From Desulfobacterales bacterium (GTDB taxonomy: Bacteria > Desulfobacterota > Desulfobacteria > Desulfobacterales > Desulfobacteraceae), in contig JAKSAU010000501.1 of the NCBI GenBank assembly GCA_022361535.1, positions 1 to 9,748 on the forward strand: a DNA stretch of 9,748 nucleotides, read 5' to 3'. The translations under genes and the position numbers were made by a program. Positions within the stretch are counted from its first letter, which is position 1; each line of letters starts with the position of its first letter. Positions 2 to 9,562 of this stretch are shown here, in pieces. The notes under the pieces were generated by a model. That model saw only the letters and a program-made list of their open reading frames with translations. It was not told where the DNA came from and did not search any database.

Positions 2-3000
2 CAATTGTACAAACAATCCGGGCTGAGTGAAGAACATTTCCTTAAAATTGGAGTGCAGATTACCGCAGCGGTCATTGACATCCACCGGGAGCAGATTCTT
101 CACAACAATATTAGCCTTGCAAATATCGTTTTAAATCGTGCGGACGGCCGTCTGAACATCATTGATTTTGCCGATGCCAGCCCTATAAATGAAAATCGGG
201 AAAAAGTTACCACTACTAACCTTCAGACCGAACCTGGATACCTTGCACCTGAAAGATCGGGAAGGACTATTTTTCCTGTTGATTTTCGTTCGGATCTTTA
301 CTCAATAGGGATGGTCTTTTACCGGCTGCTGACGGGTCGTCTTCCCTTTGAATTTTCTGAGCCGTCTCAACTCACCCATGCCCATCTGGCCAGAAAGGCC
401 ATTCCAATACAGAAAATATCCAGAACGGTCTCAGACCCTTTGTCTGATATCATAATGAAATTATTGGAAAAAAATCCTGGCGATCGGTATGCGGAAGCTG
501 AACACCTTCTGCAGGATCTCAATGTTTGCCTGAACAGAAAGATTCCCCGGCAGCAGTCTGTTTTTACGATCGGGAAAAAAAGCTTGCTCCGTGATTTGAG
601 TGATTCAAAAAAAATTTTCGGCCGGCAGAAGCAGCACAGGTTGATGGTTCGTACCTGGAATCAGGTGAAGACTGAGAAACAGATATTTCTGGTCAAAGGT
701 GCTGCCGGGGTGGGTAAAACCGCATTGGTTCAAAGTATCGACACCCCGGATATCCTTGGCTCCGGTGTGTTTATCCAGGGTAAGTTTGATCAGCTTCAAA
801 GCAATGTACCTTACAGGGCGTTAACACATGCCTTTGGTCGCTTGATTGAGCGTATCCTGTCAACGACACAGGATTCGTATGAACGTTGGCAGAAACGGCT
901 GAAACGTGCGCTGGGGCCCAATGGCAGGCTTATCACGGATTTGATCCCCGCTCTTGAAAAGGTGATCGGTCCCCAGCCTCCTGTCGCACCTCTTAAACCA
1001 CTTGAAGAAAAAAATCGATTCGCTTTTGTTTTCCATAGTTTTGTAGAGGCCCTGTGTGTAAAAGACCAGCCCGTGTGCCTGTTTTTTGATGACTTGCAAT
1101 GGGTGGATAAAGGATCACTTGAATTAATACGCATCATCTGTATTTCTCCGAATATTAAGCACTTGATGGTTGCTGCGGCGTACCGTGATAATGAAGTGAA
1201 TGAAACCCACAACTGGTCCAAGCTTGTTTCCGATCTAAAACAGCATGAGATAAGCATCACTCGGGTTCGTGTGTCTCCTTTGGGTATTGATGAAATTTCC
1301 CTTTGGCTGTCAATGCTTTTGAAGCAGTCTAAGGACAAGGTTACTGATCTGGTTGAGGCAATATTCCAAAAAACCGGGGGCAATCCGTTCTTTATCAATG
1401 AGTTATTATCTTCTATCCATACGAAAGGATTCATCAAGTATGTTCCTGAAGACGGACAATGGGCATGGGACACCACGGGAATTAAGCGTTTGAAAGTCAG
1501 TCGCAGTGTGGCAGGTATTATCAGGGAGCGGATCGATTTGCTAAGCAAAGATGCTGTGGATATTTTACAGACCGCCTCATGTTTCGGTAATCAGTTCCCT
1601 TTAAAGGCGTTGAGCATTGGTGACGGCCGGTCGCCGGAAATCGTGAAAGGCCATTTGGCGCCTGCCCTGGATCATGGCATAGTCATTTGCAGGCCCTCAC
1701 GGCAGAACAGCCGCAAAGCACCCGCACAATTTTATTTTGCCCATGACAGTATTCAGCAATATGTTTACGAAAGTCTCTCCGAAACCTCCAAGAACCGGCG
1801 TCATCATCGTATCGGAAAAGAGTTGTTGGCCTATCATGGTAAAAATGCGGATAATTACCTGTTTACCATTGTCAGCCAGCTGAATGCCGGAAGAGCTATA
1901 ATTAACGACCGGGATGGCTTGTTGGAACTTGCCAGTTTGAACCGGGGCGGAGCAGAGAAATCTTTAGAGTCTGCAGCCTATGACTCTGCCCTTGATTTTT
2001 ATCAGACCGGTATTCATCTTCTGAAAAAGACCGCTGATGATCTTGGGAACTCCCCTTGGCAGGACCAACCGGACCTTTGTTTTTCCTTATATAAGGGGGC
2101 AGCACAGGCCGCTTTTCTGATGAGCGAATATGACAAAATGGATGACCTGATCAGTCAGGTGGATCAGAATGTTCAGGACCTGGTGAAAAAAAAACGGTTT
2201 TACGAGATAAAGATTAGTTCTTTGTATGCCAGGAACCGTATGGATGAAGCCATTGATATTGCCCTTGAATTTTCCAAACGTCTTGGTGTCAGGTTTCCCA
2301 GAAAGCCAAACAAGGCACATATTATCATGGGACTAATGAAAACCCGTGTACGATTGCTCGGCAGGGATACGCGGGATCTGGCCCTGTTGCCCGAGATGAA
2401 GAATCCCATTTCTCTTGCCGTGTTAAGGGTTCTTTCCTGTGTGACACTGGCGGCCTTTTATTCCTGCCCCAATCTACTGCCGCTCATCGTATTCAAGTCT
2501 ATTGACCTGTCCCTGAAACACGGCAATACCGATGCCTCCATATTCGGATATTCCGGGTATGGATTCATCCTGTGTGGCGTTTTAAATAAAATGGATGCCG
2601 GCTATCGCTATGGCCGTCTTGCAATGGACCTTGTAAAAGAGTTGGCCGCAAAAAGCATTGAAACCCGTACCACAAGCACATTCTGCGGTTTGATTTCACA
2701 CTGGACGGACCATCTTAAGGATACAATGCCTATACAGCGGGTATCTTTTAGGACCGGGCTCGACACCGGTGACCACCAATTCGCCGCCATCAGCGCTGTA
2801 GCTTATTGTACAGCTGCCTTTCATACGGGCGTTCCACTTGATGGTGTTAAAAAAGAGATGAATACGTATATGTTTCATCTTCAGCAGATCAAGCAGGATG
2901 TCGTTTCTACAAAATTAGGCATTTTTATCCAGGCCGTGACCAATCTATCCGAAAAGAGCCAGGCTCCGTGGAAACTAAAAGGCGAGCTGCACGATATTGA

Positions 3001-4921
3001 TGTTATAAAGCCGACGCTAATCCAATCCAATGACCAAATCGCTCTTTTTACCCAGTTTTATCTGTCATGTATGTTGTGCGTTATCTTTAACAGGCCTCAG
3101 GATGCGGTTCGCTATGCTGATCAGACTCGTGAGTATTATGAATCCGCCCAGGGTATACCGGATTCGGCCTGCTTTATTTTCTATGATACAATTGCCCGAC
3201 TGTCTCTTGCCGTCCAAGTGAACGGCCGTACAAAGCGGAAACTTATCAGTCAGGCAAAGGCCAATATCAGGTTGATGAGCCGCTGGGCATCGTATTGTCC
3301 TGCGAATTTTATCCATAAACAGGAATTAATGCAGGCCATGATGTATCAAGTGGAAGGAAAAGCGGATAAGGCATCGGCTTATTTCCGGAAATCTGTCGAC
3401 CATGCCTCTGAGAACCAGTATGTAAACGACAAAGCCCTGGCATGTGAAATGGCGGGCCGTTTTTTTATAGCTTCAGAGGAACAGGTTCAGGCTAAAAAAT
3501 GGCTGCTGAAATCCCATGAATGTTACCTTGAATGGGGGGCTTTGGCAAAGGCCAGACACATGGAAGAAACATATTCCACGCCGAAGATAACGTTTACGGA
3601 TAGTCCTGGCTTGGAATTCCAGAGTCAGGCGTCTGCACAGTATTTCAATGTCAACGTTGATCCGGATCTGATTGCAGACCACGATCTTGATGTTCATACC
3701 GTACTCAATGCCTCTCGGGCCATCGCAGCTGAAACCCGACTACCTGCGCTCTTGAAAAAGCTGATCCATCTCATTATAGAAAATTCCGGTGCGCAAAAAG
3801 CGTTTTTACTGCTGTATTCTGATAATACGTTAAAAATTGAGGCCTTTGCCCGGCTTAATCCGGATGACATCCGAATACTTGAGTCTCGAAAGTTTTCCGA
3901 GGATACCTTGGATTTACCGGTATCTGTTGTAAATTATACCCTTCGCACCGGAGAAAGCATTATTCTTGAAGATGCAGGGCAATCCAGCCAGTTTCAGACA
4001 GATGCATATATTATCTCAAACCGGCCGGTGTCGATTCTGTGTATGCCAATCTACAATAAAAACCTGACTGCCGGTATCCTGTATCTTGAAAACAACTTGA
4101 TGAAAGGTGTGTTTACCAAACAGCGGCTGAAAATTCTTAATATTCTCATTTCGCAGGCGGTTGTTTCCATTGAAAATGCGCGGTTGGATGAAGCCCTGTT
4201 AAAAGAAAAGAGACAAAAGGATGCAGCTGTCGGGGAGATCAGTCTTCATAAGAGACTACTTAAAGATATGTCCGCCGAACTGGCCATGGTAGAAGAGAGG
4301 GAGAAAAAGGCCATTGCCGACGATCTCCATGACAGTGTATCCCAGACCCTGGCATTGGGCGTTCTTAATTTGAAACGCATTGAGCAAGTCATTGACGAAG
4401 ATGTGAAGCAGGACATTGGAAAGGTTCGTGATCATCTGGGCCGGGCTGTAGAGGAAATCCGGTCACTGACCTTTCAACTCAGCCCGAGAATACTATACGA
4501 TTTCGGGCTGGTTGCCGCACTGGAATGGCTTTCAGATGATATGCGGGAGCGATATGGGCTTGAGGTGGTTTTTATGAATCAGGCGACAAAAAGTGTGAAT
4601 CTGAATAATTCCCAAAAGATTATTATTTACAGGGCGGCAAGGGAACTACTTATAAATGTTGTCAAACATGCGGATACCAACCTGGCCTTTATGATTTTGG
4701 ACAAAGATGCAGATGCGCTGGTGATAAAGATAAAAGATAAGGGAAAAGGGTTTTCCATTGCTGAGAACCGGTCTGGAAATGAGGGCTTGGGAGGATTCGG
4801 TCTTTACAGTATGCAGGACCGGCTGCTTGCAATCAACGGGCAGATACGGATTGTATCGGAATCAGACAAGGGAACGGAAATCATAATTAGAGTACCTGTG
4901 GGAAAAGATCATGATAAATAG
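2..4921 (+). CDS. Trifunctional sensor: Ser/Thr kinase-like domain, AAA ATPase, GAF and histidine kinase (5' end outside window)
   Basis: This is a cytoplasmic sensor kinase, and its N-terminus lies beyond the left edge: the frame is open at base 2, and the TTG at 5 is an internal Leu. Residues are counted from that Leu. A protein-kinase C-lobe comes first (about 1-185), with a DFG-like D54-F55-A56, an APE-like LAPER and the DLYSIG helix. Its catalytic loop is degenerate: HNN at 33-35 replaces HRD. An AAA_16-type ATPase follows, with FGR at 205, Walker A GAAGVGKT at 232-239, the family signature GKFDQ at 259 and Walker B FFDDLQW at 360-366. A long helical, TPR-like region (about 600-1210) leads to a GAF domain (about 1227-1395), a short coiled coil, HisKA_3 with phospho-accepting H1442 in DLHDSVSQ, and HATPase_c (E1547/N1551, D1578, G-rich loop 1594-1599). 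No membrane segment is evident, so the signal is probably sensed inside the cell. The architecture matches the cyanobacterial/proteobacterial trifunctional kinase family. The stop overlaps the response-regulator start. Confidence 0.93.
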   Translation, partial: QLYKQSGLSEEHFLKIGVQITAAVIDIHREQILHNNISLANIVLNRADGRLNIIDFADASPINENREKVTTTNLQTEPGYLAPERSGRTIFPVDFRSDLYSIGMVFYRLLTGRLPFEFSEPSQLTHAHLARKAIPIQKISRTVSDPLSDIIMKLLEKNPGDRYAEAEHLLQDLNVCLNRKIPRQQSVFTIGKKSLLRDLSDSKKIFGRQKQHRLMVRTWNQVKTEKQIFLVKGAAGVGKTALVQSIDTPDILGSGVFIQGKFDQLQSNVPYRALTHAFGRLIERILSTTQDSYERWQKRLKRALGPNGRLITDLIPALEKVIGPQPPVAPLKPLEEKNRFAFVFHSFVEALCVKDQPVCLFFDDLQWVDKGSLELIRIICISPNIKHLMVAAAYRDNEVNETHNWSKLVSDLKQHEISITRVRVSPLGIDEISLWLSMLLKQSKDKVTDLVEAIFQKTGGNPFFINELLSSIHTKGFIKYVPEDGQWAWDTTGIKRLKVSRSVAGIIRERIDLLSKDAVDILQTASCFGNQFPLKALSIGDGRSPEIVKGHLAPALDHGIVICRPSRQNSRKAPAQFYFAHDSIQQYVYESLSETSKNRRHHRIGKELLAYHGKNADNYLFTIVSQLNAGRAIINDRDGLLELASLNRGGAEKSLESAAYDSALDFYQTGIHLLKKTADDLGNSPWQDQPDLCFSLYKGAAQAAFLMSEYDKMDDLISQVDQNVQDLVKKKRFYEIKISSLYARNRMDEAIDIALEFSKRLGVRFPRKPNKAHIIMGLMKTRVRLLGRDTRDLALLPEMKNPISLAVLRVLSCVTLAAFYSCPNLLPLIVFKSIDLSLKHGNTDASIFGYSGYGFILCGVLNKMDAGYRYGRLAMDLVKELAAKSIETRTTSTFCGLISHWTDHLKDTMPIQRVSFRTGLDTGDHQFAAISAVAYCTAAFHTGVPLDGVKKEMNTYMFHLQQIKQDVVSTKLGIFIQAVTNLSEKSQAPWKLKGELHDIDVIKPTLIQSNDQIALFTQFYLSCMLCVIFNRPQDAVRYADQTREYYESAQGIPDSACFIFYDTIARLSLAVQVNGRTKRKLISQAKANIRLMSRWASYCPANFIHKQELMQAMMYQVEGKADKASAYFRKSVDHASENQYVNDKALACEMAGRFFIASEEQVQAKKWLLKSHECYLEWGALAKARHMEETYSTPKITFTDSPGLEFQSQASAQYFNVNVDPDLIADHDLDVHTVLNASRAIAAETRLPALLKKLIHLIIENSGAQKAFLLLYSDNTLKIEAFARLNPDDIRILESRKFSEDTLDLPVSVVNYTLRTGESIILEDAGQSSQFQTDAYIISNRPVSILCMPIYNKNLTAGILYLENNLMKGVFTKQRLKILNILISQAVVSIENARLDEALLKEKRQKDAAVGEISLHKRLLKDMSAELAMVEEREKKAIADDLHDSVSQTLALGVLNLKRIEQVIDEDVKQDIGKVRDHLGRAVEEIRSLTFQLSPRILYDFGLVAALEWLSDDMRERYGLEVVFMNQATKSVNLNNSQKIIIYRAARELLINVVKHADTNLAFMILDKDADALVIKIKDKGKGFSIAENRSGNEGLGGFGLYSMQDRLLAINGQIRIVSESDKGTEIIIRVPVGKDHDK

Positions 4922-5576
4922 CAATAGTACAGAAAAAAAAATCCGCTTGCTTCTAGTGGACGATCACAAAATATTGCGTGACGGACTTAAACAGGCCATT
5001 GCCCTGGAAAAAGACATGGCCTTGGTCGGCGAGGCAGATAATGGAAGAGAAGCTTTAGTGATCGCCGGAGAAACACAACCGGATGTGATTATCATGGATG
5101 TATCTATGCCGGATCTTAACGGGATTGAGGCCAGCCGCCAGATCATAAAAAATCATCCGGACCAAAAGATCATCGCCTTGTCCATGCATGATGACAAAAG
5201 GTATGTCATGGGAATGTTCAAGGCTGGTGTCTCAGGGTATCTTCTTAAAACCAATGCCTTTGAGCATCTGGCCGAAGCCGTGCGACAGGTTGCTGCAGGG
5301 CATTCATACATCAGCTCAAACGTCGCGGGTACATTGATTCGATCTGCTCTGGATCATGAAGGTGCTCCGGACGAAGCGGAAGAATTATCCTCCCGGGAAA
5401 TCGAAATCCTCCAGCTGATTGCCGAAGGAAAAAATACAGAATATATGGCGGATATACTTCACATTAGCAAAAGAACCGTGGAAAACCACCGCCGAAACCT
5501 GAGAAAAAAGCTTAAGCTTGATACTACTGCCGAATTGACACGATATGCTATCAAAAAAGGCATCATTTCTTTGTAA
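4911..5576 (+). CDS. NarL/FixJ-family response regulator
   Basis: This 221-residue protein is a DNA-binding response regulator, the probable phosphoryl acceptor for the histidine kinase just upstream. The receiver domain spans about 11-127 and keeps all the usual residues: acidic pair D17/D18, phospho-accepting D63 in IIMDVSMPD, S91 and K113. The output domain (about 157-215) is a LuxR/GerE-type helix-turn-helix, beginning LSSREIEILQLIAEG, with the recognition helix around SKRTVENHRRNLRKKL. HisKA_3 kinases such as NarX, DegS and UhpB pair with this regulator class, so the match of kinase and regulator type supports a cognate pair. The ATG lies 11 bases before the end of the kinase gene and has only a weak purine-rich stretch ahead of it, so translational coupling is likely. 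The target genes cannot be read from the sequence; the exported-protein gene downstream is the nearest candidate. The exact symbol is unknown. Confidence 0.95.
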   Translation: MINSNSTEKKIRLLLVDDHKILRDGLKQAIALEKDMALVGEADNGREALVIAGETQPDVIIMDVSMPDLNGIEASRQIIKNHPDQKIIALSMHDDKRYVMGMFKAGVSGYLLKTNAFEHLAEAVRQVAAGHSYISSNVAGTLIRSALDHEGAPDEAEELSSREIEILQLIAEGKNTEYMADILHISKRTVENHRRNLRKKLKLDTTAELTRYAIKKGIISL

Positions 5577-5616
5577 GATTCTGCATACAATCAAGACGAA
5601 TTCTTAATGACCCGAT

Positions 5617-5648
5617 TTTTTGAGTAGTTTCCCGCCTGTTTTTGAGTA
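5617..5648 (+). promoter_or_regulatory. Two direct repeats, 22-base period (possible operator)
   Basis: The 10-mer TTTTTGAGTA occurs at 5617-5626 and again at 5639-5648, each followed three bases later by TCCC. The 22-base period is close to two helical turns, so both copies face the same side of the DNA, as tandem regulator sites often do. The repeats lie in the 201-base gap between the response regulator and the exported MACPF-like protein, about 130 bases before the latter's start. No convincing -35/-10 pair was found here; TATAGC at 5671-5676 is a possible -10 but has no good -35. The operator role is an inference. Confidence 0.35.
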
Positions 5649-5699
5649 TTCTCCCTGATTGTCCCGACACTATAGCCATGCAATGATTTGAGATCGCTA

Positions 5700-5731
5700 A
5701 GTGGTTTTTAAAATCGGGCCAAAAGACCACT
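5700..5731 (+). promoter_or_regulatory. Leader hairpin upstream of the exported MACPF-like gene
   Basis: Bases 5700-5709 (AGTGGTTTTT) can pair with 5722-5731 (AAAGACCACT) in a 10-bp stem with one G-T wobble and a 12-base loop. The loop contains AAATCGGG. In addition, AAAATCGGG at 5710-5718 is the exact reverse complement of CCCGATTTT at 5611-5619, so an alternative long-range pairing across the direct repeats is possible. No T-tract follows, so this is not a normal intrinsic terminator. It could be an operator or a leader-RNA structure; no function is proven. Confidence 0.35.
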
Positions 5732-5762
5732 ATTCAAGGTGCCCAAGAACTATTCTGTTCCA

Positions 5763-5771
5763 AAGAGAGGA
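5763..5771 (+). promoter_or_regulatory. Ribosome binding site deciding the start of the MACPF-like gene
   Basis: The purine-rich AGAGAGGA stretch lies 6 bases before ATG 5778 and 9 before ATG 5781. It argues against the in-frame GTG at 5739, which would place 13 extra residues, not signal-peptide-like, ahead of a normal signal sequence. GTG 5775, directly in front of the ATG, cannot be excluded. Confidence 0.6.
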
Positions 5772-5777
5772 TACGTG

Positions 5778-8237
5778 ATGATGAAAACAAACTCCCAAAA
5801 CCAGCGTTCTATTTTTCCGGTTATAGCACTGATGCTTTTGATTCTTGCTTTTCCCTGCCGATCTGTCCTGGCACAGAAAAACGATGCGGCCTGCCGGAGA
5901 TATGCTCAGGAGGCTGTGCGACAGAATGAGCAAAATATTAAACTTCAGGCCGGCTTCAAGCCGCCTGCCTGGAGTAGTGATTTCAATGTTCACTATAAGT
6001 GGTGTAAAGCAGGCGCAAATGTTGCCACAACACCCGGCCACCTTGCAGCACGGGCAAAGCAGCTCCAGGATTTTGTCATCAAAAAGCAGGGCAAAGATAG
6101 TGCCGCCCAAAGATATGGAAAAGAAGCGGTGCGCCAGTACAAAGCATCTGCCGCCATGTCCACCGGTTTTAAGCCGCCGGTCTGGAGCAACGATTATAAC
6201 TCGCATTACAACTGGAGCCGGCATGGCAATAATATCGCAACAACACCCGGCCACTTAGCACACAGGGAAAAAGCGTTGCAGGAGTTTGCCATCAAGCATA
6301 ACAAAGGGCCTGCAAAAGCAGTAACCGGCGGCCAGTCAACGAAAATGGTTGTAGTGGGCAAACCTATCGCAGTTGCGACACTTCCTAGTATTGTTAAACC
6401 GCCTAAAACCGAATCTATAAAAAATCCTGGAACCGGTATAAAGGGTAACCACGCATTGCAGGCAAAAATGAATAAGAAAATTCTGTCCCGGATTGACCGG
6501 CCCAGTCAGATGGAATCTCCTAATTTTGCATTTGATTCTGATTCAGAGACCTTTATGTACTATCCGTCAGACCACCATCAGAAAGTAGGTCTTGGCAAGG
6601 GGTATGACACTCTCTATGGAAGAGTGATGTCATCTGCAGTCGATATCCTGCCGGGCGGCCATAACGAGGACCCTTTGGATAAAACAGATGAACTTTTCGG
6701 ATTTGTGACTGAGATCAAAGACGGGTACGTAAGGTCATTGGATGAATTCTGGGAGCATCTCGGTGTAGATATCAAAGTTTCCGGTCATTATATGGGATAC
6801 TCAGGAAGCAGTGAAACTCAATTTGATAAGTACAAGAGCAACAGCAGCTACGCAGAAACATACGTTGCCTCGGTATTTATGGAAACTTTTGTAGAGTATA
6901 CAAACCTTTCTCAGCTTAAATTGAAACCCGAGGCGCTTTCCGTATTAAAAACCTACGGTAAAAATGAATTTTATAAGAGATATGGAGACTGTTTTCTTTA
7001 TGCCATTTATTACGGGGCTTCTCTTCAGGGGGCGGCGTCATACAATCTGCTAAAGGAAAGCAGTAATACAAAAATAATCACTAAAAACAAAACCAGCGGT
7101 AACTGGGGTTTTGCAGGTTACAGTGTGGGAGTGGATGTTGAAAAGGAGACTAGGAAGGCAAAAGAACGCCAGAGCGAGGATTCGTTGATTCGTTCCTTTG
7201 GGGCAGGGTATCCGGTTCTGCAGACCAATAAGTCAGTGGACAGACTCAAAGATCTTGTCTCCAAGTTTCCCAAGCTGGCTGCTGATGAGGCAAGACGGTC
7301 TACAGCTAACAGGAAAAACGGTGGTGTGATCAGATACGAGGTTATGAAATACAGCAGACTTCCTGAATTTATCCATATCGCAGGAGATCAGGCACTGGAC
7401 CTTAGTGAACAGCGGAAGCTGTTATTTGATCTGACACACTACCGGAAAAAAATCGAATACATGATGAACAATCTTGTCTATATCATTGATCATCCCGAAG
7501 AGTTCAAACCCCATGAGATTCAGCAGGCCATTTCCAAGAAAAAAGATCTTGCCGGATGGGTAAAGACAGTGAATCATGACATCTTTATCCTGAAGAAATA
7601 TCCTCTGGACCGCTCAAAATGGAAATTCAACAACAACTACAACCACATCCCGGAATATGCCCCGGATACTCGGTTTGCGAAAGTGAAAGTCCATTTTCCG
7701 GCAGAGCCGGTAGAGCCGCAGACCAGCGGGGATCACAACTGGATAAAAGATCATCAGGGCCCATTGATCAAATTCAACCTCACAAAGGGTGACCATGATG
7801 GGTACGGCAATAGAATGGCCATCGATATCAATACCGAACTTGTGGTAAGCCAGGACAAAAAGGAAGCATTCCTGAAATTTAAATTCAAATCCGTTGAAAC
7901 CCAGGGCGATAATACCACATATGAAGGGGTCAAACCCCTTTACAAGGTATATCATGCTCCTGAAAATCATATTATCGTGGGATTTAAAAAAGCTTCGGAG
8001 AAATATGTCTTCAGAGACCTGTTCAAGAATAAGCCTTACGTAGAAGACGGTGCCGTGATCAGGAATGTTCATCTTCAAAAGAAAGAGTATCCTGAATTTA
8101 ATTTTGTCAACGCCCCCATAAAGGAACCCAGATTATGGCCTAACCTGTCTGTGATTTTTGATACAAGCGACGGGGACAGCCAGCAGGGCGCTTTTGGAGA
8201 CCTTGTTTTTGAAGTGGAACTCAAGCCGGTCAAATAG
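5778..8237 (+). CDS. Exported MACPF-like (perforin-type) protein with two N-terminal 71-residue modules
   Basis: The 819-residue protein starts with a Sec signal peptide: a charged N-region, hydrophobic core IFPVIALMLLILAF, and VLA before Q33 as the likely cleavage site. Cys in AFPC does not fit a lipobox. Residues 36-106 and 107-177 are two copies of one module, sharing GFKPP-x-W, HY-x-W and ATTPGHLA; I do not recognise its family. After a linker rich in Pro, Lys and Thr (about 178-265), residues 270-535 resemble the MACPF/CDC fold: LGKGYDTLYG at 272, a long beta strand at 357-374, FYKRYGDCFLYAIYYG around 399-414 in the place of the Y-G-T-H signature, then GNWGFAGYSVGVDVEKE and a FGAGYPVL turn. 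The Thr-His of the signature is replaced by Asp-Cys. The C-terminal part (about 640-819) looks beta-rich and unassigned. MACPF proteins insert oligomeric pores into membranes; that this one does so is inferred. It follows the response regulator after a 201-base gap with its own leader. Confidence 0.8.
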   Translation: MMKTNSQNQRSIFPVIALMLLILAFPCRSVLAQKNDAACRRYAQEAVRQNEQNIKLQAGFKPPAWSSDFNVHYKWCKAGANVATTPGHLAARAKQLQDFVIKKQGKDSAAQRYGKEAVRQYKASAAMSTGFKPPVWSNDYNSHYNWSRHGNNIATTPGHLAHREKALQEFAIKHNKGPAKAVTGGQSTKMVVVGKPIAVATLPSIVKPPKTESIKNPGTGIKGNHALQAKMNKKILSRIDRPSQMESPNFAFDSDSETFMYYPSDHHQKVGLGKGYDTLYGRVMSSAVDILPGGHNEDPLDKTDELFGFVTEIKDGYVRSLDEFWEHLGVDIKVSGHYMGYSGSSETQFDKYKSNSSYAETYVASVFMETFVEYTNLSQLKLKPEALSVLKTYGKNEFYKRYGDCFLYAIYYGASLQGAASYNLLKESSNTKIITKNKTSGNWGFAGYSVGVDVEKETRKAKERQSEDSLIRSFGAGYPVLQTNKSVDRLKDLVSKFPKLAADEARRSTANRKNGGVIRYEVMKYSRLPEFIHIAGDQALDLSEQRKLLFDLTHYRKKIEYMMNNLVYIIDHPEEFKPHEIQQAISKKKDLAGWVKTVNHDIFILKKYPLDRSKWKFNNNYNHIPEYAPDTRFAKVKVHFPAEPVEPQTSGDHNWIKDHQGPLIKFNLTKGDHDGYGNRMAIDINTELVVSQDKKEAFLKFKFKSVETQGDNTTYEGVKPLYKVYHAPENHIIVGFKKASEKYVFRDLFKNKPYVEDGAVIRNVHLQKKEYPEFNFVNAPIKEPRLWPNLSVIFDTSDGDSQQGAFGDLVFEVELKPVK
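5883..6308 (+). repeat. In-frame tandem duplication, 2 x 213 bp, within the MACPF-like gene
   Basis: Two adjacent 213-base units (5883-6095 and 6096-6308) encode the 71-residue modules. The DNA is still recognisably similar in places: CAACACCCGGCCAC appears in both, at the ATTPGH motif. Elsewhere the copies have diverged, so the duplication is old and the protein motif has been kept by selection. Unit 1 has Cys39 and Cys76; unit 2 has Ala and Ser at the equivalent positions (110 and 147). Confidence 0.85.
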
Positions 8238-8560: not shown

Positions 8561-9562
8561 ATGATTCGTTTTAACCATTTACCTTCCACCACCAGGACCA
8601 TCACCATGTCGTTGATCCAGGTGATTGTAGTTTTGATGCTGAGCGCTGGCCTCGGTGCATTTACCACCGTTTGCAGCCAAACACAGCAATATAATCCCGG
8701 GCAGTTGGTAGCCGCCAGCCCCATCGCCATTCCCCGGCCCATCCGGCTTGAGGTTTATGACCCTGTAAATAAAATTGCAGGCCTTCCTATTCCCATCCCA
8801 AGACCACCCATAAACAAAGATATGGGGATACCAGCCCCTGCAGCCGTACCTGCAGAAACAAAAATGATGAAAACCACCACACTTGCTCTTCCTGCAAAAA
8901 AGCCGGCTATAAGGGCAATGAAGGATGACATCACCGGCTTTGAGATGGTGCGTATGCGTAATTCAACCTTAGTTGTCCGGATGCATTTCAGTGTTGACCC
9001 GGATAGAAGCCGTCCGATATATGCAGGGGCCTGGCTGTTCGGTCCTGGTAGAAAGGATGTGGGAGTCGGCTATAAACCGGTGACTATCCCCCGGGTCGAC
9101 ACAGGTTCTGTGGATATCATACTGACCCTCCCGGATGAGCCGTTTACCACCGAGTTTGCAGAAGCCATGCTTATTCAGTCGGGACAGGTGATTGCTAAAA
9201 AGCGATTTGCCGCCGCCTATGCCTGGAATTCAGATTCGGCTACACAGGGGAATCTTACTACCCTAAAAAAGGTGGAGCAATTGCAGGGCGCGTGGAAAGC
9301 AAGCATTTTAGGTAACCCTGTGGAATACATATTTACCCCGGATGGCAGTGATATTAACAATCCGGGAAAATTCCAATGGCGCTGCGATGCATTCCAGCAG
9401 ACAGCCAAAGGTACAATCCAAGCGGGAAATCAAATACATGCAGCCTGGACCGAGTTGGGAAAACAGATTTCCGGTGTCGCATCTGTCGAACTCAACAGCT
9501 CTGGTAGCGCTGTCAAAATAATCTGGAACAATGGCGTAGTAATGACCCGTAATTCTAATTAG
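8561..9562 (+). CDS. Exported protein of unknown function, Pro-rich linker plus two beta-rich domains
   Basis: This 333-residue protein is not recognised as a named family. A rather long basic N-region (about 15 residues) precedes a hydrophobic segment, SLIQVIVVLMLSAGLGAF, consistent with a signal peptide cleaved near residue 38-40; FTTVC is not a proper lipobox. Residues 50-110 are rich in Pro, Ala and Lys and contain two similar short motifs, SPIAIPRPI and LPIPIPRPP. Residues about 122-222 alternate beta-type segments (TLVVRMHFSV, DIILTLP, AEAMLIQSGQVIAKKRF). Residues about 240-333 form another small beta-rich domain beginning LQGAWKASILG, with a run to KIIWNNGVVM; its pattern recalls small beta-barrels of lipocalin type, but this is only a resemblance. 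The start is set by a good ribosome binding site. It lies 323 bases after the MACPF-like gene on the same strand and is followed by a terminator, so it may be the last gene of this exported cassette. The periplasm or the outside is its likely location. Confidence 0.85.
   Translation: MIRFNHLPSTTRTITMSLIQVIVVLMLSAGLGAFTTVCSQTQQYNPGQLVAASPIAIPRPIRLEVYDPVNKIAGLPIPIPRPPINKDMGIPAPAAVPAETKMMKTTTLALPAKKPAIRAMKDDITGFEMVRMRNSTLVVRMHFSVDPDRSRPIYAGAWLFGPGRKDVGVGYKPVTIPRVDTGSVDIILTLPDEPFTTEFAEAMLIQSGQVIAKKRFAAAYAWNSDSATQGNLTTLKKVEQLQGAWKASILGNPVEYIFTPDGSDINNPGKFQWRCDAFQQTAKGTIQAGNQIHAAWTELGKQISGVASVELNSSGSAVKIIWNNGVVMTRNSN

Follow-up and report, generated by a model that had tools for sequence, protein, structure and literature searches.

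In excerpts of PMC5483515, Y(F)-G-T(S)-H-X7-G-G is called the only signature identified for MACPF proteins, and close versions of it appear in PMC3667788 and PMC6089593; these and the other papers cited here are represented by excerpts. The C-terminal domain of BSAP-1, a Bacteroidales antagonism protein, is required for receptor binding (PMC12853789). The bacterial insecticidal protein Mpf2Ba1 has a beta-prism that holds a membrane-binding site; it oligomerises and refolds helical segments into a beta-barrel (PMC10344926). Cholesterol-dependent cytolysins (CDC) carry a signature undecapeptide in their domain 4 (PMC7527733). Here we analysed a stretch of 9,748 nucleotides from a Desulfobacterales bacterium (contig JAKSAU010000501.1; hereafter the window), which encodes the 819-residue protein P0001. 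The initial annotation placed its gene correctly, at 5778-8237 of the + strand, and described the product as a secreted MACPF-like protein with a variant signature. The profiles of its relatives and the fold ranking support the MACPF-like reading. We consider P0001 likely (probability of roughly two in three) to be an exported, ring-forming beta-barrel pore-former homologous to MACPF proteins, pore formation being predicted.

Among 5.77 billion proteins, P0001 has four relatives with 67-100% identity over residues 240-819, and three further ones with 38-40% identity and the same architecture. These seven proteins (P0002-P0008; 38-99% identity) keep 91-100% of the length of P0001; P0008 starts inside the first N-terminal module. 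An alignment scan of 84,980 species genomes revealed one locus, L002, which encodes a distant relative (31% in the best segment) with one variant-type module, a proline-rich linker, a MACPF-like region and a C-terminal domain. The contig scan with the single P0001 sequence found nothing. One more relative, WWY89135.1, is encoded on a plasmid of Streptomyces griseoaurantiacus and was found by tblastn (22% over 317 columns, residues 268-577). Transposase and recombinase genes lie near this gene (L001:4971-6578).

The single sequence of P0001 had no match in Pfam, NCBIfam, PADLOC or PDB, and a PDB search with the sequence of L005, a protein from the order of the L002 genome, also gave nothing. 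The search with PF01823 (Pfam MACPF), proposed in the initial annotation, returned no match at E up to 1 for P0001, P0006-P0008 and L002, or at E up to 10 for P0002-P0005. The Streptomyces relative (17.5 bits, E 0.0048) and L005 (16.0 bits) remained below the curated cut-off of 21.5 bits. Profiles built from the relatives, by contrast, reached MACPF proteins in PDB. The four-relative profile (E up to 10) gave four matches: GNIP1Aa (4e-4), Mpf2Ba1 (0.22 and 0.26) and wheat germ lectin (2.8), which is not a MACPF protein. Five matches were obtained with the seven-relative profile, namely GNIP1Aa (1.5e-5), Mpf2Ba1 (6.1e-4 and 6.7e-4), a designed bundle (0.28; not MACPF), and Plu-MACPF (2qp2; 0.84). 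A diverse six-row profile, which includes L002 and the Streptomyces protein, gave eight: Mpf2Ba1 (2.6e-5 and 2.7e-5), GNIP1Aa (3.5e-5), Aegerolysin-L (5e-4), 2qp2 (0.005), TgPLP1 (0.76), and two unrelated entries (0.38 and 0.86). Some rows are common to the three profiles, which are not independent of one another, and Aegerolysin-L is counted as MACPF-like from these matches, its PDB title not naming MACPF. The profiles thus connect P0001 to solved members of the MACPF/CDC superfamily, and at this level of evidence it is homologous to MACPF proteins. As judged from the sequences, its conservation in seven relatives together with the MACPF-first profile ranking is more than chance. The cytolysin undecapeptide is absent from P0001, as read from the sequence. 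The layout of the gene and protein is as follows.

5778..8237, + strand: coding sequence of P0001, a predicted secreted MACPF-like protein of 819 aa (ATG at 5778, stop codon ending at 8237; relatives P0002-P0008 and L002).
5778..5873, + strand: predicted signal peptide, residues 1-32, identified by eye (type-I-like end V-L-A before Gln33).
5886..6083, + strand: N-terminal module copy 1, residues 37-102, with Cys39 and Cys76 (module profile).
6099..6296, + strand: N-terminal module copy 2, residues 108-173, without cysteines (module profile).
6312..6563, + strand: variable linker, about residues 179-262 (poorly conserved in the alignment; low model confidence).
6579..7508, + strand: MACPF-like domain, about residues 268-577 (profiles, fold ranking, and the match of the Streptomyces protein to 268-577).
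6732..6854, + strand: putative TMH1, the first membrane-hairpin segment (residues 319-359), placed by the model between beta1 and beta2 (confidence score pLDDT <50 there).
6981..7019, + strand: variant signature Y-G-D-C-X7-G-A, residues 402-414 (sequence reading).
7044..7325, + strand: predicted second membrane-hairpin segment (TMH2) and the next helix, residues 423-516, between beta3 and beta4 of the model (mostly pLDDT <50).
7404..7598, + strand: pair of long helices within residues 543-607 (model, block pLDDT 76-93).
7665..8234, + strand: beta-rich C-terminal domain, residues 630-819 (secondary structure of a weak model).

The strings LGKGYDTLYG (272-281), FYKRYGDCFLY with YYGAS (398-415) and GYSVGVDVEKE (447-457), from which the MACPF pattern had originally been read, occur in that order. 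The structure prediction suggested at the same time gave no confident model, but the low-confidence model (residues 256-628) shows its elements in the MACPF order, beta1-TMH1-beta2-helix-beta3-TMH2-beta4. Among the best 50 of 196 Foldseek matches to this domain model (E up to 10), at least 48 are MACPF/CDC, complement or Aegerolysin-L entries by their titles, with none from outside the family in rows 1-48. The best match is the Aegerolysin-L pore 9uj0 (E 1.6e-5, probability 1.00). In the full-length model, only the N-terminal modules and the helical hairpin were good enough to use, and a Foldseek search with this model yielded no match below E 0.1. No confident model lacking the fold appeared, and no search matched P0001 clearly to another family. 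A secreted repeat protein that is unrelated to MACPF and resembles it by chance would agree with the missing Pfam match and the low-confidence model; this reading is very improbable, given that the fold ranking, the bridging Streptomyces protein and the three overlapping profiles all indicate MACPF.

At the signature, P0001 reads Y402-G-D-C-X7-G413-A. The canonical form is thus absent, while the Tyr, the Gly, the exact X7 spacing and the first Gly of the pair are kept. The Gly-Asp-Cys variant described earlier is present at residues 403-405 (DNA 6984-6992) and its Gly-Asp recurs in relatives, but the Cys is not conserved: the residue after Gly-Asp is C, T, S, V or K. Y-G-D was found in 11 of the 12 domain relatives detected by similarity (P0002-P0008, L002, the Streptomyces protein, P0019, L004 and L005), the exception being L004 with Y-G-T-H. 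L004 and L005, a canonical BACON-MACPF protein and a Gly-Asp protein, were detected with the six-row profile in the order of the L002 genome; Pfam MACPF scores 3.5e-12 on the former and 0.014, below the cut-off, on the latter. In L004 (L004:4-2670), the Y-G-T-H MACPF follows five BACON domain stretches. The product of L005 has a lipoprotein-like start (by eye), and one genome of this order, G094, contains two Gly-Asp MACPF-like genes, L005:1330-2895 and L014. P0019, 828 aa long, reads Y-G-D-S-Y at the signature and has a long insert that is likely helical; Pfam gave no match for it at E up to 1, and a PDB search with it gave only a four-helix bundle (0.18).

As a control, PF01823 was run on 149 genomes of the L002 order. 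Matches occurred in nine genomes, in eight of them over the cut-off, and made up 14 loci: 12 with Y-G-T-H, one with F-G-D-K (L014) and one with no motif by pattern (L020). Trees were calculated from 24 rows, 12 Gly-Asp and 12 Thr-His, the latter drawn from one order; P0002 (near-copy), L004 (same gene as L011) and L020 were left out. With the motif columns, the split between the two types is one branch (90/83). Without them the split needs two changes, and a single change occurs in 26% of the bootstrap trees. After removal of four long rows (P0019, L012, L013 and L015), one branch is obtained both with (98/98) and without (97/95) the motif columns. Since the split is clean without the motif columns only after this removal, a common Asp-signature branch is favoured by the sequences, but not firmly.

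P0001 could instead have a non-pore MACPF fold, being a secreted surface or matrix protein for assembly or adhesion in which the signature change reflects a lost pore transition. MACPF proteins thought to be non-pore-forming exist (PMC5483515), and the Thr/Ser, the His and the second Gly of the signature are all replaced in P0001. Against this, Aegerolysin-L, solved as a pore, reads Y-G-D at the signature place in the six-row profile alignment. Because of this analogy, which is based on the title of 9uj0 and the alignment, we infer that the Asp does not abolish pore formation. In an unplanned scan for hydropathy alternation, the top 12-residue window (323-334) lies inside TMH1, which also speaks for a pore, though windows in module 1 (from 53) and in the C-terminal domain (from 679) come close to it in score. 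On balance, the non-pore alternative appears quite unlikely.

The N-terminal part of P0001 was described initially as two unknown modules and a linker. Both modules are true repeats and the linker is present, but the module also heads ten otherwise unlike proteins. The two copies match the module profile, which was partly built from them, at E 3e-35 and 1e-34. The module has a length of about 65 aa, and the profile finds 42 copies in the collected proteins. With the truncated copy of P0008 set aside, 24 of the 41 complete copies have both cysteines, 17 have neither and none has one. Eleven copies went into the profile, and many copies are near-copies of one another, so the 41 are not independent events. 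As the cysteines are jointly present or absent in 41/41 complete copies, the pattern fits a disulfide. The usual order, also seen in P0001, puts the copy with cysteines first and the one without them second. Each copy is predicted to fold as a long helix, a loop, a short helix and a long helix (block pLDDT 58-87). Pfam scans of 11 carriers (P0001-P0008, P0009, P0015 and P0018) and L002 gave no match on the module. A likeness to ankyrin was rejected as chance; the best of 25 solved-structure rows were short ankyrin stretches (0.0097).

The ten other proteins, P0009-P0018, align over 17-26% of the query, that is, the N-terminal modules only, and are otherwise unlike P0001; they have signal-like starts. 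IPT/TIG or PAN domains occur in three of them (P0015, P0016 and P0017). The names recorded include Desulfobacterales bacterium (P0009), Desulfobacter latus (P0015) and Pseudomonadota bacterium (P0013). None of the ten has the signature by pattern, which, together with the IPT/TIG and PAN domains, suggests a structural setting and is a further point for the non-pore alternative. For the pore-former preferred here, the modules may hold the protein at the surface or in the matrix of the producer, or act in export, as they are shared with other proteins with signal-like starts. A wider proposal would be a lineage of Y-G-D MACPF pore-formers in distant bacteria, mostly missed by PF01823, with one branch displayed on the surface or in the matrix of its producer by a tandem, disulfide-bonded module that the same bacteria reuse for many other secreted proteins; as a whole, it is rather unlikely.

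P0001 would be exported by its predicted signal peptide. This signal has no canonical lipobox by eye; Cys27 follows A-F-P, and no Cys is present at that position in P0004, P0005 and P0007. Subunits of P0001 would form a ring on the target membrane, and TMH1 and TMH2, two helical segments per subunit, would unfold into a beta-barrel pore as in Mpf2Ba1. By analogy with BSAP-1 and Mpf2Ba1, the C-terminal domain may bind the target and set specificity. This domain (630-819) is kept in P0002-P0008 and L002, as seen in the alignment, and no known match to it was found. The target could be bacterial (competitors) or eukaryotic (a grazer or a host). A BSAP-type pore-former acting on related bacteria may be entertained tentatively: the L002 genome is titled Bacteroidales and the six-row profile detects MACPF proteins in its order, and P0001 has a large conserved C-terminal domain, the part that BSAP-1 needs for receptor binding (PMC12853789). 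However, BSAPs are surface lipoproteins with PF01823 (PMC12853789), neither of which holds for P0001 (signal by eye), and no obvious immunity gene is present in the window, where no dedicated search for one was made. Action on a eukaryote, such as a protist grazer or an invertebrate, would agree with GNIP1Aa and Mpf2Ba1 being the best sequence-profile matches. It is somewhat unlikely, as these matches span the MACPF part only and profile rank says little on the target.

No relatives of P0001 were found in viral contigs or, by tblastn, in phages, and the N-terminal modules were not found in plasmids. The PHROGs search with P0001 gave only one weak unrelated row (0.12). The title of the L002 genome is that of a Bacteroidales metagenome-assembled genome. 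In a search of 296 genomes of that phylum, the module occurred only in the L002 genome itself; the contig may therefore be misbinned, which leaves the title unsure. P0002-P0008 carry the precomputed Pfam label PF26770; part of the P0001-type protein is thus already recorded as a family.

The two-component pair reported next to P0001 was confirmed and lies upstream: a multidomain kinase ending in HisKA_3/HATPase_c, then a response regulator. The kinase open reading frame (ORF; 2-4921, open at the window start) encodes Pkinase, AAA_16, GAF, HisKA_3 and HATPase_c domains, i.e. a very large hybrid of a Ser/Thr kinase, AAA_16, GAF and a histidine kinase. It overlaps by 11 bases with the ORF of the LuxR/GerE-type response regulator (4911-5576; receiver and GerE domains). 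The + strand showed no promoter-like or terminator-like site from 5577 to 5777, so co-transcription of the P0001 gene with the pair is possible. The downstream ORF (8561-9562, 333 aa) has a signal-like start and a Pro-rich stretch, which by eye resembles the linker of the L002 MACPF-like protein; it had no match in Pfam, NCBIfam, PADLOC or PHROGs.

The closest fold match, the Aegerolysin-L pore 9uj0, shares the aligned Y-G-D-x-F with P0001 and is matched over residues 258-627 of the full-length model, including the helical hairpin. It differs in that its profile E is only 5e-4 and the match stops short of the N-terminal modules and the C-terminal domain of P0001; its source and paper were not found in the open-licence literature searched. 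GNIP1Aa (6fbm) and Mpf2Ba1 (8b6u, 8b6v), bacterial insecticidal MACPF proteins, are the best profile matches over the part from TMH1 to the signature, but their signature residues are unlike those of P0001 in the profile alignments, and Mpf2Ba1 consists of a MACPF domain and a C-terminal beta-prism (PMC10344926). BSAPs are, like P0001, bacterial MACPF proteins with a separate C-terminal part (PMC12853789); P0001 differs by its type-I-like signal without a lipidated Cys (by eye), the lack of a PF01823 match, its two N-terminal modules and Gly-Asp. WWY89135.1 shares the MACPF-like domain and Y-G-D-x-F, but has no signal-like start or module and possesses a C-terminal beta/gamma-crystallin domain. 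The MACPF-like domain of P0001 is of an already known kind; neither the Asp branch nor the combination of module and MACPF was met in print in the open-licence literature searched. PF01823 misses P0001 and its close relatives. If Y-G-D proteins form pores, the signature as published is too restrictive and the number of bacterial pore-formers is underestimated. The shared N-terminal module offers a testable handle on how the producers, presumably Desulfobacterales, place secreted weapons or adhesins.
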